A stretch of DNA of 49,429 nt from Spirochaetales bacterium Spiro_02 (GTDB lineage: Bacteria > Spirochaetota > Spirochaetia > Sphaerochaetales > Sphaerochaetaceae). The notes beneath the pieces are model-generated. The model was not told where the DNA came from. It saw only the letters and a list, made by a program, of their open reading frames with translations, and ran no database searches. Both the position numbers and the translations under genes were made by a program. Positions 155-44,335 of the stretch are shown piece by piece. The DNA lies in contig LVBD01000052.1 in assembly GCA_001604275.1 (NCBI GenBank), positions 1 to 49,429 of the forward strand. Reading direction: 5' to 3'. Position 1 is the first letter of the stretch, and each line of letters starts with the position of its first letter.

Positions 155-287
155 TGCAATAACCCTGCAATACCCCTTATATTATTTTGTATGATACATA
201 CTCCGATTTGACAGGTACGGTCGCTCTGGGGTTTCGTCTATGCGTCGCATAGACTGCTTGCGTATCCGTACTCATTGGAGTTGTATC
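155..287. other. leader region of the first MFS gene
   Basis: This stretch holds the degenerate iteron pair (155-176). A possible promoter is TTGCAA (155-160), 18 bases, TATATT (179-184), in which the repeat itself would supply the -35 box. A perfect 8-bp stem with a 3-base loop lies at 236-254 (arms GTCTATGC and GCATAGAC) and would sit in the mRNA leader. TTGACA at 209-214 has no good -10 partner. No gene is supported here. Confidence 0.35.
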
Positions 288-5657: not shown

Positions 5658-5689
5658 GTCATGTTGCTAGCAATCACCGAGCATGCATG

Positions 5690-5733
5690 CATCAATGGCA
5701 AAGCAATGACTAAGCAATGGCAAAGCAATGACT
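5690..5733. repeat. four tandem 11-bp iterons
   Basis: Four head-to-tail 11-mers alternate between AAGCAATGGCA and AAGCAATGACT (the first copy is degenerate), giving a 22-bp dimer repeated twice. The array lies between the terminator of the exported barrel gene and the 3' end of hflX. Its core GCAATGAC is the same as in the iterons at 8422-8443, 36114-36204 and 44283-44316. Confidence 0.85.
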
Positions 5734-5770: not shown

Positions 5771-7054
5771 TTACCGTTTTGGGATCAAGGTGGATAGATA
5801 GGCTTCGTTGCGACCGCTCAGTCGGGCGACGACATGCACACCGTCCTCTTCGTAGTCGATTGATTCGATCGTGCCGTTGCGCCGTATCCATGCGACTAGG
5901 TCGTGGCGGTCGTTGGGAATAAGATAGCTGCCGTTCGGTCGAAGCCGGTGGATGACGTCTTCGATCGCATGTTCGAGATCCTCCAGTCCCTGGCGGTTGG
6001 TCACCGATGTCTCGACGAACGGACCGTCGACCATGCTTTTCAAACGTGCCACGGCGAACTGCTCCAGACATGCATCCATTTTATTGACCATGACGATCGT
6101 CGGTTTTTCGGCGCAATCCAGCGAACGGAGGACATCGATCGTCGTGTTGTAGCAGGCGAGCATGTCCGGGTGCGACGCATCGCATACGATAATCAGAAAA
6201 TCGGCGTCCTTGGTTTCGTCGAGGGTCGACTTGAAGGCGTCTACCAAATGATGGGGCAGGTCGCTGACGAATCCTACCGTATCGGACAGAAGGATTTCAT
6301 AGCCGCCGGACAGCTTGACCTTGCGGGTCGTTGGGTCGAGGGTGGCGAACAGTTTGTCCTCGACCAGGATGTCCGCTCCTGCGAGCGCCTTGAGAAGGGA
6401 AGATTTGCCGCTGTTCGTGTAGCCGACGATCGCGCCGATGGGAAGCGACCCTTCGCGACGGCTCTTGCGTTGGATCTGTCGCTGTTCTTCGACTTTCGCT
6501 AGTTCCTGCTTCAGCTGGTCGATCCTGTGCAAAACGACCCGACGATCCAGTTCCAACTGGGTTTCGCCTTCGCCTTTGGTGCCTTTCACTCCACCTTTCT
6601 GCTGGGAGAGGTTCGTCCATTTACGGGTGAGCCGTGGAAGCGAATACTGAAGCCGGGCGAGGCCGACCTGAAGCACGGCTTCTCGGGTCATGGCTCGATT
6701 TGCGAAAATCTGCAGGATCACTTCCTGGCGGTCTATTACGCATAGTCCGGTCGCTTCCTCGAGATTCCGTTGATGCCGCGGCGACAGGTCGTGGTCGAAC
6801 ACGATGCATTGAATTTCCTGTTCTTCACAGAGTCGCTTCAGTTCCTCCGCCTTGCCTTGTCCGATCAGGGTGGCCGGGTTCTCCTGTCGGACCGGGACGA
6901 TCAGCGAAGAAACGACTTCGCTGCCCATGGTGGAAATCAGGCTTTCCAGTTCTTCCAGCCGGGCCTGGACCCGCGATTGATCGTCGCCCTGGAATCTGAG
7001 AGCCAATGCCATCGTCCGCTGCGGACGTTTTCCAGTCGTTTCGATGTTCTGCAT
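5771..7054 (-). CDS. hflX: ribosome-associated GTPase HflX
   Basis: A 427-residue GTPase that in characterised bacteria binds the 50S subunit and splits stalled or hibernating ribosomes. The N-terminal HflX domain includes TLIGQGKAEEL, and the hallmark linker GTKGEGETQLELDRR precedes the G domain. The G motifs are G1 GYTNSGKSS, the switch region ATLDPTTRK, G3 DTVGF and G4 NKMD; a C-terminal domain follows. The start at 7054 has only a distant purine-rich site (GAAGGAAG), and a downstream ATG at residue 15 (MALALRF) is a possible alternative. It is divergent from ychF, with about 150 bases between. The family is certain, the exact start less so. Confidence 0.93.
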   Translation of the reverse strand: MQNIETTGKRPQRTMALALRFQGDDQSRVQARLEELESLISTMGSEVVSSLIVPVRQENPATLIGQGKAEELKRLCEEQEIQCIVFDHDLSPRHQRNLEEATGLCVIDRQEVILQIFANRAMTREAVLQVGLARLQYSLPRLTRKWTNLSQQKGGVKGTKGEGETQLELDRRVVLHRIDQLKQELAKVEEQRQIQRKSRREGSLPIGAIVGYTNSGKSSLLKALAGADILVEDKLFATLDPTTRKVKLSGGYEILLSDTVGFVSDLPHHLVDAFKSTLDETKDADFLIIVCDASHPDMLACYNTTIDVLRSLDCAEKPTIVMVNKMDACLEQFAVARLKSMVDGPFVETSVTNRQGLEDLEHAIEDVIHRLRPNGSYLIPNDRHDLVAWIRRNGTIESIDYEEDGVHVVARLSGRNEAYLSTLIPKR

Positions 7055-7206: not shown

Positions 7207-8313
7207 ATGGGTTTGAATTGTGGGATCGTCGGGCTTCCGAACGTAGGGAAGTCGACGATATTCTCCGCGCTGACTTCCGCTCCAGCCGAGGCGGCTAACT
7301 ATCCGTTCTGTACGATCGATCCCAATATCGGGATGGTAAGCGTCCCCGATCCACGCCTGGACCGGATCGTCGAATTGATCCCTCCTGCGAAAGTGGTTCC
7401 AGCGACGGTGGAGTTCGTCGACATTGCCGGTCTGGTCGCAGGAGCTTCGAAAGGCGAGGGGTTGGGCAACAGGTTCCTTGCGTCGATTCGCGAAGTCGGG
7501 GTGCTCGCCCATGTGGTGCGATGTTTTGAGAACGGGGACATCATCCATGTGAACAACCGAATCGATCCCGCGAGCGATATCGAGACGATCAATATCGAGC
7601 TCGCCTTGGCCGATCTTGACACGGTCGATAAGCGGTGGCAGAAGCAGAGCAAGCTGACTCGGCTGAGCAAAGAGGCGGCGAAGGAGAACGCCCAGGTTCT
7701 TCCGGTTCTTGAGCGGCTCAAGTCGTGCCTTGAAGATGGCAAGCCCGCGCGCAGTCTCAATCTGGATGATGATGAACGCAAGTTGATCTACGATCTGCAT
7801 CTCATTACCATGAAGCCGGTGATCTATGTCTGCAATGTCGATGAAGACGGCATCCTCGAGGACAATGCCCATGTGAAGCAGGTCCGTGAGATCGCCGCCA
7901 CCGAGGGCGCCGACGTCGTGGTGATCTGCGGCAAGATCGAGGCTGAAATCGCCGATCTGGAGACGGAAGACGAGAAGCGGGAATTCCTGGAGGCGGTCGG
8001 TCTGCACGAGTCGGGTCTGAACCAGTTGATTCGTTGCGCATATGAAACGCTTGGTCTGCGTACGTTCTTCACCGCTGGCTCCGATGAGGACCGCGCCTGG
8101 ACGTTCCATGCCGGCGATAAGGCTCCCCAGGCCGCCGGAGTGATCCATACCGATTTTGAGAAAGGGTTCATCAAGGCCGAGGTCTACAATTGCGACGATC
8201 TGTTCACCTACGGGAGCGAACAGAAGGTTCGCGAAGCGGGCAAGCTCCGCCTCGAAGGGAAGGAATACCTTGTCCAGGATGGAGATATCATGCATTTCCG
8301 TTTCAACACGTAA
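7207..8313 (+). CDS. ychF: redox-regulated ATPase YchF (Ola1 family)
   Basis: A 368-residue Obg-family P-loop protein that prefers ATP to GTP and associates with ribosomes. The N-terminal G domain has G1 GLPNVGKST, the NYPFCTIDPN switch region, and G3 DIAGLVAGASKGEGLGN. The usual NKxD is replaced by NVDE, the change that gives YchF its ATP preference. A coiled-coil insertion and a C-terminal TGS domain (AWTFHAGDKAPQAAGVIH) follow. The ATG at 7207 has GAGGTG upstream and gives the standard family length; an ATG at 7138 would add 23 unrelated residues and overlap the promoter. Its stop codon TAA is the first three bases of a large inverted repeat shared with the convergent lipoprotein gene. Confidence 0.96.
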   Translation: MGLNCGIVGLPNVGKSTIFSALTSAPAEAANYPFCTIDPNIGMVSVPDPRLDRIVELIPPAKVVPATVEFVDIAGLVAGASKGEGLGNRFLASIREVGVLAHVVRCFENGDIIHVNNRIDPASDIETINIELALADLDTVDKRWQKQSKLTRLSKEAAKENAQVLPVLERLKSCLEDGKPARSLNLDDDERKLIYDLHLITMKPVIYVCNVDEDGILEDNAHVKQVREIAATEGADVVVICGKIEAEIADLETEDEKREFLEAVGLHESGLNQLIRCAYETLGLRTFFTAGSDEDRAWTFHAGDKAPQAAGVIHTDFEKGFIKAEVYNCDDLFTYGSEQKVREAGKLRLEGKEYLVQDGDIMHFRFNT

Positions 8314-8445
8314 GGGTCATCCTAGGGTCAGTGGAGTACGTACGCGCCTCATGACTTCCAGCATCGCACCACCCCTCCCCAAATCGATCAAACACGTGCC
8401 TCGCCGTCAAGCGATGACTCCACAATGACCCTGCAATGACCCTTA
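8311..8445. repeat. stop-to-stop inverted repeat between convergent genes
   Basis: The left arm starts with the ychF stop codon (TAAGGGTCAT, then AGGGTCA, GTGGAGT; 8311-8337). The right arm, read on minus, starts with the lipoprotein stop codon (TAAGGGTCAT, then GCAGGGTCATTG, TGGAGTC; 8445-8416). The arms match with a few gaps. The right arm contains two perfect head-to-tail copies of the 11-mer TGCAATGACCC or its near variant. The roughly 80-base centre is unique. It could act as a bidirectional terminator or a REP/MITE-like element. Confidence 0.8.
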
Positions 8446-9213
8446 CCAAGTGACCGAGAAAGTGAGGGGAGTGGCAAGAAGCAGAAAATCGATCAGCGGG
8501 AAACTGTATTCGAAGGTCGTAGCGTCGAGTACCGTCCCGTTGATGTTGCTCTTGATCGGGGAAGGAGTCTTGAACCGCAAGGTGATCAACGAGTTCTTGA
8601 TCGCCGGCGGACCATCTTCGCTGAGAATATAGCGCATCATCTCCAGATAGTTCTCTTCGGTTTCCCCGACATTATAGACAGGCCCCCAGACCTCGAAGTT
8701 CGGATCGGCGAGGAACGGGATGATCTTCGTCAGTTGGTCGTAGTTGTCCATGGAAAGCTGTAGTTTCAGCGTCGTATCCTTGCCGGACCGTGATACAGTC
8801 AGGACACTCTGTTCGGCGCCGCCTCCCAGATCGCGGAACAGTTGTTCAAGGTTCTTGAACTGGAAAACGACCGTATAGGAACTGTTTTCCGAACCGGGAA
8901 GCTTCTCGACATGCACGTTCGTCGTATTGTCCGCATTGGACAGATTCGCTGCGAAATCTTTCACCGCGGCGTCCGTGATAGTTTCGTCGGAGCTCTCCGG
9001 CATGAACTCGGACATGTCCTCCAGTACTTCGGAGAAGAAATCCATGATCATGAGATCGGTTTTGGACGAGCCTGCGGTCGTCGCATCAAGACTCAGGTCT
9101 TCGGTCACGACGCAGCCGCTGAGAGCCAGCGCGATGGCCAGAATGCCTCCTGCGATTATCGGAAAGCGGAGAAAACCGCCCGTTCGATTGTGTTTGTTTG
9201 TGTGTGGATTCAT
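8443..9213 (-). CDS. lipoprotein of unknown function
   Basis: A 256-residue lipoprotein precursor: a basic N-terminus, a hydrophobic segment (IIAGGILAIALALSGC) and the lipobox LSGC, with the acylated Cys near residue 34. The mature part is acidic and soluble-looking, with stretches such as FQFKNLEQLFRDLGG, and ends in strands (FSVTW). No known domain is recognised. The ATG at 9213 is chosen over TTG at 9219 because the AGGA site is 9 bases from the former and only 3 from the latter. It is probably transcribed alone from a promoter at 9245-9274 and converges with ychF across an inverted repeat. Confidence 0.8.
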   Translation of the reverse strand: MNPHTNKHNRTGGFLRFPIIAGGILAIALALSGCVVTEDLSLDATTAGSSKTDLMIMDFFSEVLEDMSEFMPESSDETITDAAVKDFAANLSNADNTTNVHVEKLPGSENSSYTVVFQFKNLEQLFRDLGGGAEQSVLTVSRSGKDTTLKLQLSMDNYDQLTKIIPFLADPNFEVWGPVYNVGETEENYLEMMRYILSEDGPPAIKNSLITLRFKTPSPIKSNINGTVLDATTFEYSFPLIDFLLLATPLTFSVTW

Positions 9214-34661: not shown

Positions 34662-36109
34662 ATGAACCTCTGTTGATTGAACGGTCCAAGGCGGGGCGCA
34701 GTAGCTATCAGTTCCCCCAGCTCGATCTCCCCAGGGGGTTCGATGTCGCGCTTCCTGAACTTCCTCCGACACTGCGGCGTTCCAAGGAACCTAGGCTTCC
34801 CGAGGTTTCCGAGCTGGATGTGATTCGTCACTTCACGCGGCTTTCGACGATGTCGTTCGGAGTTGATTCCGGTTGCTATCCGCTTGGTTCCTGCACGATG
34901 AAATATAATCCGAAGGTGAACGAACAGCTTGCTTCGCTGGAGGATTTCACGGCGATGCATCCGTTGCAGGATGTTTCGACGATCCAGGGCTGTCTTTCCG
35001 TGATGTACAATCTTCTGGAGGATTTGAGCGGGATTACGGGTATGGCGTGGGGCACATTGCAGCCTTGCGCCGGGGCCCACGGAGAATATACTGGTCTGAA
35101 GATTATCCGAGCGTGGTTCGAGCATCATGGGGATGCCCGAAGGACACGGATCCTTGTTCCTGAATCGGCGCATGGCACTAATCCGGCCTCTGCGGCAGTG
35201 AATGGGTTTACCGTGACGACGATCCCCGCTGATGCCGAAGGATTGGTCGATATAGATGCGCTTCAGGGGTTGCTCGACGATACCGTGGCGGGTGTCATGC
35301 TGACCAATCCGAATACTCTCGGCTTGTTCGAGAAGCATATCCTCGCCATCTCCGAAATGGTACATGCCGCCGGCGGGTTGCTCTATTACGATGGGGCGAA
35401 TCTGAATGCGATCATGGGGATGTGTACTCCTGGAGACATGGGGTTCGATGTGGTGCATCTGAATCTTCACAAGACGTTCGGCACTCCACACGGCGGAGGA
35501 GGGCCGGGTGCGGGTCCTGTGCTTGTCTCCCGTGATCTGGTTCCGTATCTTCCGAAGCCGGATATCAAGCTGGTCGATAGCGGGTATGCGTTCGACTGGT
35601 CCAGTGAGTTGTCCATCGGCAAGGTCAGCGGTTTCTGGGGTAATTTTCTTGTTCTTGTCCGCGCCTATTCGTATATTCTGCGCATGGGTGCGGAGGGAAT
35701 CCGGGCTGCGGCCGCTCATGCGGTGTTGAACGCGAACTATCTGCTTTCCCGACTGAAAGGGACGTTCTCCGTTCCGTACGGAGAGCGATGCATGCATGAG
35801 TTCGTTGTTTCTCTCGAGGATTTGAAGGAGAAGACCGGGGTCTCCGCCCTCGATGTGGCCAAAGCGTTGCTTGATAGCGGGTATCATCCTCCGACGATGT
35901 ATTTTCCGTTGATCGTCCACGAGGCGTTGATGTTCGAACCGACTGAGAGCGAGAGTCCCGAGACGCTGGATGAGCTGGCCGATACGTTGATCGAACTTGC
36001 CGGAATCGCTGCGTCGGATCCGCAGAGGCTCAAGCAGGCTCCGCTCACGACGCCGGTGCGTCGGGTCGATGAGGTCGCAGCTGCGAAGAATCCGATTCTC
36101 CACGCGTAG
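34658..36109 (+). CDS. gcvPB: glycine dehydrogenase (decarboxylating) subunit 2
   Basis: A 483-residue C-terminal half of the P protein. The PLP lysine is in HLNLHKTFGTPHGGGGPG; CYPLGSCTMKYNPK and SAHGTNPASA are further signatures. Its start lies in the gcvPA stop (ATGA). It is the last gene of the glycine cluster. gcvT (aminomethyltransferase) and lpd are not in the window, so the complete system needs genes elsewhere. An iteron-containing repeat begins a few bases after its stop. Confidence 0.96.
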   Translation: MNEPLLIERSKAGRSSYQFPQLDLPRGFDVALPELPPTLRRSKEPRLPEVSELDVIRHFTRLSTMSFGVDSGCYPLGSCTMKYNPKVNEQLASLEDFTAMHPLQDVSTIQGCLSVMYNLLEDLSGITGMAWGTLQPCAGAHGEYTGLKIIRAWFEHHGDARRTRILVPESAHGTNPASAAVNGFTVTTIPADAEGLVDIDALQGLLDDTVAGVMLTNPNTLGLFEKHILAISEMVHAAGGLLYYDGANLNAIMGMCTPGDMGFDVVHLNLHKTFGTPHGGGGPGAGPVLVSRDLVPYLPKPDIKLVDSGYAFDWSSELSIGKVSGFWGNFLVLVRAYSYILRMGAEGIRAAAAHAVLNANYLLSRLKGTFSVPYGERCMHEFVVSLEDLKEKTGVSALDVAKALLDSGYHPPTMYFPLIVHEALMFEPTESESPETLDELADTLIELAGIAASDPQRLKQAPLTTPVRRVDEVAAAKNPILHA

Positions 36110-36113
36110 TTAT

Positions 36114-36204
36114 GGTCATTGCAGGGTCATTGTGGGGGTGTGCCGTAGGGGTGTGCCGTAAGGGTGTGCCGTAAAAGGGTGTCGCCATGGCCCTGCAATG
36201 ATCC
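36114..36204. repeat. inverted iteron repeat enclosing 13-bp tandem units
   Basis: The left arm (36114-36135, GGTCATTGCAGGGTCATTG) is matched on minus by the right arm (36204-36185, GGATCATTGCAGGGCCATGG). Between them lie three near-identical 13-mers of the form GGGGTGTGCCGTA (36135-36173) and a degenerate fourth. The layout of tandem units bordered by GCAATGAC-type ends parallels the array at the left end of the window. Confidence 0.8.
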
Positions 36205-36292
36205 TTGCCCTGATCCTTGTTACCTTGATATATCCTCTTTTGACATACCCCTCAAAGTGCCGGATCCTTTGCGAGGCGCCGAAAAAACAAAG

Positions 36293-44282: not shown

Positions 44283-44335
44283 TCATTGCAGGGTCATTGC
44301 AATGACCCTGCAATGACCCCCATCAGCTGATGGGG
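44283..44335. repeat. 34-bp iteron palindrome plus adjacent 18-bp palindrome
   Basis: 44283-44316 is a perfect 34-bp palindrome made of two TGCAATGACCC-type units on each side of a centre at 44299/44300. 44318-44335 is a second perfect palindrome (CCCCATCAGCTGATGGGG) that contains the rel stop codon. Both lie between convergent genes and could terminate transcription from either side. A lone GGGTCAT at 44173-44179 may be the remnant of a left arm. Confidence 0.85.

Follow-up and report, generated by a model that had tools for sequence, protein, structure and literature searches.

Two lineage-specific families of 11-nt repeat modules at gene 3' ends in a Sphaerochaetaceae genome and their possible link to RAYT-like transposases

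The dispersed 11-base repeat found in the window, that is in the whole 49,429-nt stretch of DNA analysed here, is real and its abundance in the genome is far beyond chance. It belongs to two families. Family 1 forms arrays (AGGGTCATTGC)n, with n = 2–7 and the unit given as on the coding strand of the gene that precedes it, and family 2 consists of 11-nt modules GTCATTGC-TTTGCCATTGC-TGCATGCMTGC-TCGGTGATTGC, preceded by an AT-rich stretch. Both are restricted to the present genome, the only one of its genus among the genomes compared. In our estimation there is about an even chance that these two related, lineage-specific families are non-autonomous elements spread by, or derived from, two divergent RAYT-like HUH transposases, with slippage enlarging the arrays. 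For family 2 the case for such a link is good; for family 1 it is suggestive.

The draft genome to which the window belongs (2.61 Mb, 74 contigs, 99.7% complete, ~55% GC) groups with Sphaerochaetaceae. A sequence-only reading of the window had proposed five repeat sites, all of which exist, and they comprise the following features.

44299..44320, minus strand: family-1 array of two head-to-tail units (GGGGTCATTGC AGGGTCATTGC), 2–3 nt past the relA/spoT stop codon (44323-44325)
44283..44300, plus strand: opposed family-1 arm, which with the minus-strand units makes a 34-bp palindrome (44283-44316)
36112..36133, plus strand: family-1 array ATGGTCATTGC AGGGTCATTGT, 2–3 nt past the gcvPB stop codon TAG (36107-36109)
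36136..36174, plus strand: 13-bp minisatellite GGGTGTGCCGTAA in three copies, after the family-1 array
36185..36205, minus strand: degenerate opposed family-1 units (AGGATCATTGC AGGGCCATGGC)
8311..8345, plus strand: ychF stop codon TAA (8311-8313) running directly into degenerate family-1 modules GGGTCATCCT-AGGGTCAGTGG-AGTACGTACGC
8422..8443, minus strand: family-1 array AGGGTCATTGC AGGGTCATTGT, beginning at the stop codon (8443-8445) of a convergent gene (8443-9213)
5670..5732, minus strand: family-2 element GTCATTGC-TTTGCCATTGC-TTAGTCATTGC-TTTGCCATTGA-TGCATGCATGC-TCGGTGATTGC, 38 nt past the hflX stop codon (5771-5773)
156..177, minus strand: variant family-1 dimer (AGGGGTATTGC AGGGTTATTGC), next to which lies a 12-bp minisatellite; no stop codon is predicted beside the dimer

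RelA/SpoT, GcvPB and YchF were identified via the NCBIfam models TIGR00691, NF003346 and TIGR00092, respectively, and the C-terminus of YchF is native. As proposed from the letters, three sites (5690, 8311 and 44283) lie between convergent genes, one starts a few bases after gcvPB (at 36112), and the palindrome at 44283-44316 is perfect: its two 17-nt arms are 100% complementary and meet without a spacer (DNA hairpin z −6.5). This palindrome is an abutting inverted pair and not the basic form of family 1. The further proposal that all five sites carry one shared element has to be given up, since the TGCAATGACCC and AAGCAATGACT sites represent two distinct families. The units at 155-177 are variants. 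Common to families 1 and 2 are GTCATTGC and the 11-nt period. At the start of the contig (window 6-146) there are 11 copies of a 12-bp minisatellite, CTTGGGTGGCTA, adjoining the variant dimer at 156-177. An RNA-family search of the window returned one tRNA and nothing else.

The suggested search of the genome and its relatives for the dimer GCAATGACCCTGCAATGACCC, allowing up to two mismatches, gave 83 matches in the genome versus none for the reversed pattern, and none in any of 60 relatives' genomes. The exact GGGTCATTGC occurs 87 times at ~47 sites in 2.6 Mb, against one occurrence of the control. Multi-unit arrays number 68 in the own-genome sample of 1.02 Mb of stretches (one with the reversed-pattern control) and zero in the relatives' sample of 770 kb, and the genome as a whole holds ~70 family-1 arrays for an estimated total of 2,300 genes. 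A scan of ~85,000 species produced a single exact match, isolated, in a Phycisphaerales MAG; IMG/VR contained no match to the repeat, and screening the relatives' 3' ends for enriched words revealed none comparable to the family-1 repeat.

The family-1 unit is most conserved at GG (positions 3–4), T8 and G10 and most variable at positions 1, 6, 9 and 11, and common variants such as AGGGTGATTGC carry stops. In ~10–14 of the 68 family-1 arrays the array is closed in register by AGTAGGTACGC, with no separate hairpin adjoining, and other 9–22-bp minisatellites often follow. The arrays are locally homogenised: neighbouring units match exactly in 44% of cases, versus 18% between arrays. Tandem dimers do not fold (mean z −0.5), and strong hairpins are confined to places at which two opposed arms meet, 44283 being one of them. 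The name of protein-binding iteron, offered by the sequence-only reading, is a fair description of shape, with the binding itself putative. Family 2 has ~20 copies, mostly 3' of genes, in a placement looser than that of family 1, and a conserved hairpin is absent from it (mean folding z +0.2). Family-2-like modules are also found paired into 22-bp tandem repeats of 5.9–6.8 copies (L035 11291-11439 and L063 1910-2039), and large minisatellites with other units of 11–17 bp occupy similar spacers (L046 6065-6188, L053 3716-3839, L069 5718-5815, L060 8146-8265 and L142 796-899). The density of intergenic tandem arrays is ~34 per Mb in the stretches sampled later, which were partly hit-centred, 68 per Mb over the whole own-genome sample and 0–25 per Mb in relatives.

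How are the arrays placed with respect to genes? Among 47 arrays of at least two units, 41 lie downstream of a gene in sense orientation and 35 are both sense-oriented and start at −1 to +11 nt from the stop codon, figures that are an element-centred statistic and not a genome-wide rate, because the sampled stretches were picked around arrays. Gene calls came from a simple codon-usage caller built for the present analysis. Under a null of random intergenic position and strand, 44% would be sense-oriented and 5% would in addition fall within 15 nt, and the binomial probabilities are ~1e-9 for sense orientation and ~1e-35 for sense orientation combined with stop proximity. Location just after stop codons had been noted from the window, and over the larger sample it turns out to be tighter than was claimed; within the window the dimer at 155-177 departs from it, having no adjacent predicted stop. 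The contexts are convergent for 24 arrays and tandem for 16. Nearly all arrays have the left edge T(A/T/G)|AGGGTC, so that the first A of the unit often completes TAA or TGA, or gives the AG of TAG; TAA is the stop at 15 of 32 array-bearing ends as compared with 172 of 840 overall.

The ends abutted by arrays are native, coinciding with the family-profile end or differing from it by a few residues, in enolase, NAPRTase, Rex, PRK05313, YchF and GcvPB. Since array-bearing genes keep native C-termini, the arrays do not truncate genes, and truncation by insertion was rejected. All arrays are extragenic bar one, which is probably a gene-calling artefact. Insertion at tRNA-linked sites was likewise rejected, the exceptions having near them one tRNA-Ala only, ~300 nt downstream of an array in L047. 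The arrays lack the G+C hairpin followed by a T run that defines an intrinsic terminator, and this candidate was rejected too, with terminator-like hairpins at 7 of 32 array-bearing ends and at 78 of 360 others. Downstream of two arrays (L043 ~5950-6073, minus strand, and L069) we observed GGGGTGAGAATCCC-type sequences that resemble a cobalamin riboswitch by eye.

The search for a RAYT gene, also suggested by the sequence-only reading, brought up two divergent RAYT-like genes. They encode paralogous Y1/HUH-like proteins, C33 and C45, which are 36% identical and whose best NCBIfam model is the REP-associated tyrosine transposase (NF047646), at 35.3 and 26.1 bits and thus below the cut-off of 80. 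The Y1_Tnp score is above cut-off for C33 and below it for C45. In the pairwise alignment both proteins have HUH-like (PDHIHLL / SNHFHFL) and Tyr-helix (RYVVLNPDRA / RYIKRNPENA) motifs, with a putative catalytic role. Identical family-2 22-mers in inverted orientation stand on either side of the C33 gene (L044 6984-7005 and 8100-8121). The C45 gene starts ~170 nt past a family-1 array (four GGGTTATTGC-type units, then GTAGGTACG), an adjacency with a chance of ~1–3% by rough estimate, not computed. The C45 gene has a family-1 copy on just one of its two sides; its 3' side has other sequence, and the contig ends within 190 nt. That segment, from just past the C45 stop to the contig end (L056 7155-7343), resembles by eye the 3' portion of a further gene, possibly an IS gene, and has a single copy in the assembly. 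Comparable full-length homologues of C33 and C45 were absent from 394 other genomes of the class, and no homologues of the C45 protein were found on plasmids. A separate short Y1_Tnp-like fragment (C60, L032 1501-1611) is probably an IS200/IS605 remnant.

Both families consist of 11-nt modules, most of which end in TTGC. In the scenario that we consider here, the C33 gene product would mobilise family 2 and the C45 gene product family 1. A single-strand-specific transposase could gain access to the non-template strand that is left exposed once the last ribosome has passed, which would place family 1 in sense orientation at native 3' ends; alternatively, selection may have removed copies placed elsewhere. 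Replication slippage would then lengthen and homogenise the arrays. We favour the transposase link because of the copy numbers, the placement, the native gene ends, the C33 flanks, the C45 adjacency, the NCBIfam model and the motifs, because the repeats and the C33 and C45 genes are both missing from relatives, because GTCATTGC and the 11-nt period are common to both families, and because neighbouring units match exactly in 44% of cases versus 18% between arrays. Counted against it are the sub-cut-off scores, the non-palindromic units and the one-sided C45 copy, and to our knowledge no RAYT acts in a transcript-oriented way. That a divergent RAYT-like HUH transposase family recognises non-palindromic 11-bp direct-repeat modules, not a hairpin, and transposes in a directional, stop-proximal and transcript-oriented manner, seems to us unlikely.

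A serious rival, tentative as it is and on balance somewhat improbable, is a one-directional function at 3' ends, by which family-1 arrays would be selected cis-acting elements that end or pace transcription right after the stop, above all where two genes converge. They could act as tandem polymerase pause sites, as a G-quadruplex or R-loop former, or as putative polar-roadblock or RNA-binding-protein sites. The fixed sense orientation with zero spacing would be expected from such elements, as would the convergent excess (24/40, p ~4e-4) and the fact that conservation within the unit is highest at the GGG and the penultimate G. A loose quadruplex motif is present on the sense strand at 53% of array ends and on the antisense strand at 6%, but this signal follows from the unit itself, whose sequence yields the GGG spacing. 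Moreover, arrays stand at only ~70 of the estimated 2,300 genes, all relatives lack them even though they have the genes too, and terminator-like hairpins are equally common with (7/32) and without (78/360) arrays.

Ordinary minisatellites, arising by independent slippage in non-coding DNA with neither an element family nor mobility, would account for the local homogeneity of the arrays and for the many unrelated 9–22-bp minisatellites in the same spacers, and we consider them very unlikely to be the origin of the repeats. One 11-mer at ~47 unlinked sites, with orientation and start point fixed, makes independent origin impossible, so that as a full account independent slippage is refuted, and its likely remaining role is to cause the variation in array length. 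DNA uptake sequences like those of Neisseria or Pasteurellaceae, whose inverted pairs would function in terminators, resemble the repeats in the short common core, the 3' location and the occasional inverted pairs. They are an extremely improbable explanation: the exact unit is present at only ~47 sites in 2.6 Mb, far from high density, and the copies are tandem, extragenic and fixed in orientation to the gene.

Gene-end repeats are common in bacteria and the reason for their location is unsettled. Here, orientation and stop distance are nearly fixed at untruncated housekeeping genes in one lineage with two candidate transposases, which makes targeting versus selection directly testable. The RAYT-linked reading, if true, would widen the kinds of DNA on which RAYT-like proteins act. 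The 3'-end location of the arrays has precedent in the REPs described in the available text of PMC3733652: GTAG/CGTC-tagged REPs and BIMEs are likewise dispersed and intergenic, lie between convergent or co-oriented genes and now and then form opposed pairs, most lie no more than 20 bp from a 3' end, and their termini often supply a stop codon, TAG. They differ in being 20–40-bp palindromes, whereas here there is an 11-nt direct-repeat module with GTAG only in the terminal module of a minority of arrays; near-fixed orientation to the upstream gene is a feature of the present arrays and not one that this text describes for REPs (PMC3733652). The earlier suspicion of REP-like structures is thus sound as to multi-copy, dispersed, extragenic repeats biased to 3' ends, but the units of both families are not palindromic or hairpin-forming (dimer z −0.5, family 2 z +0.2) and therefore fail the REP definition in its strict form.

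The present genome resembles the RAYT/REPtron arrangement (PMC2817692, PMC8266576) in having a Y1/HUH gene, C33, between inverted copies of a repeat that occurs throughout the genome, family 2, and in having two paralogues, each of which lies close to a repeat dialect of its own. It differs in that C33 and C45 are divergent and sub-cut-off, the cognate repeat is non-palindromic and the C45 repeat is one-sided. Iterons of plasmid rolling-circle Rep proteins such as pMV158 RepB also combine 11-bp direct repeats with an HUH-class protein, whereas the present repeats have no replication origin and are dispersed over ~70 sites at gene ends. Mycobacterial interspersed repetitive units (MIRU), of tens of bp per unit, are tandem, variable in number, intercistronic and oriented with the flanking gene, and overlap stop and start codons; the present arrays share the tandem, variable-number, intercistronic, oriented and stop-overlapping layout, but have 11 bp per unit and often lie between convergent genes.
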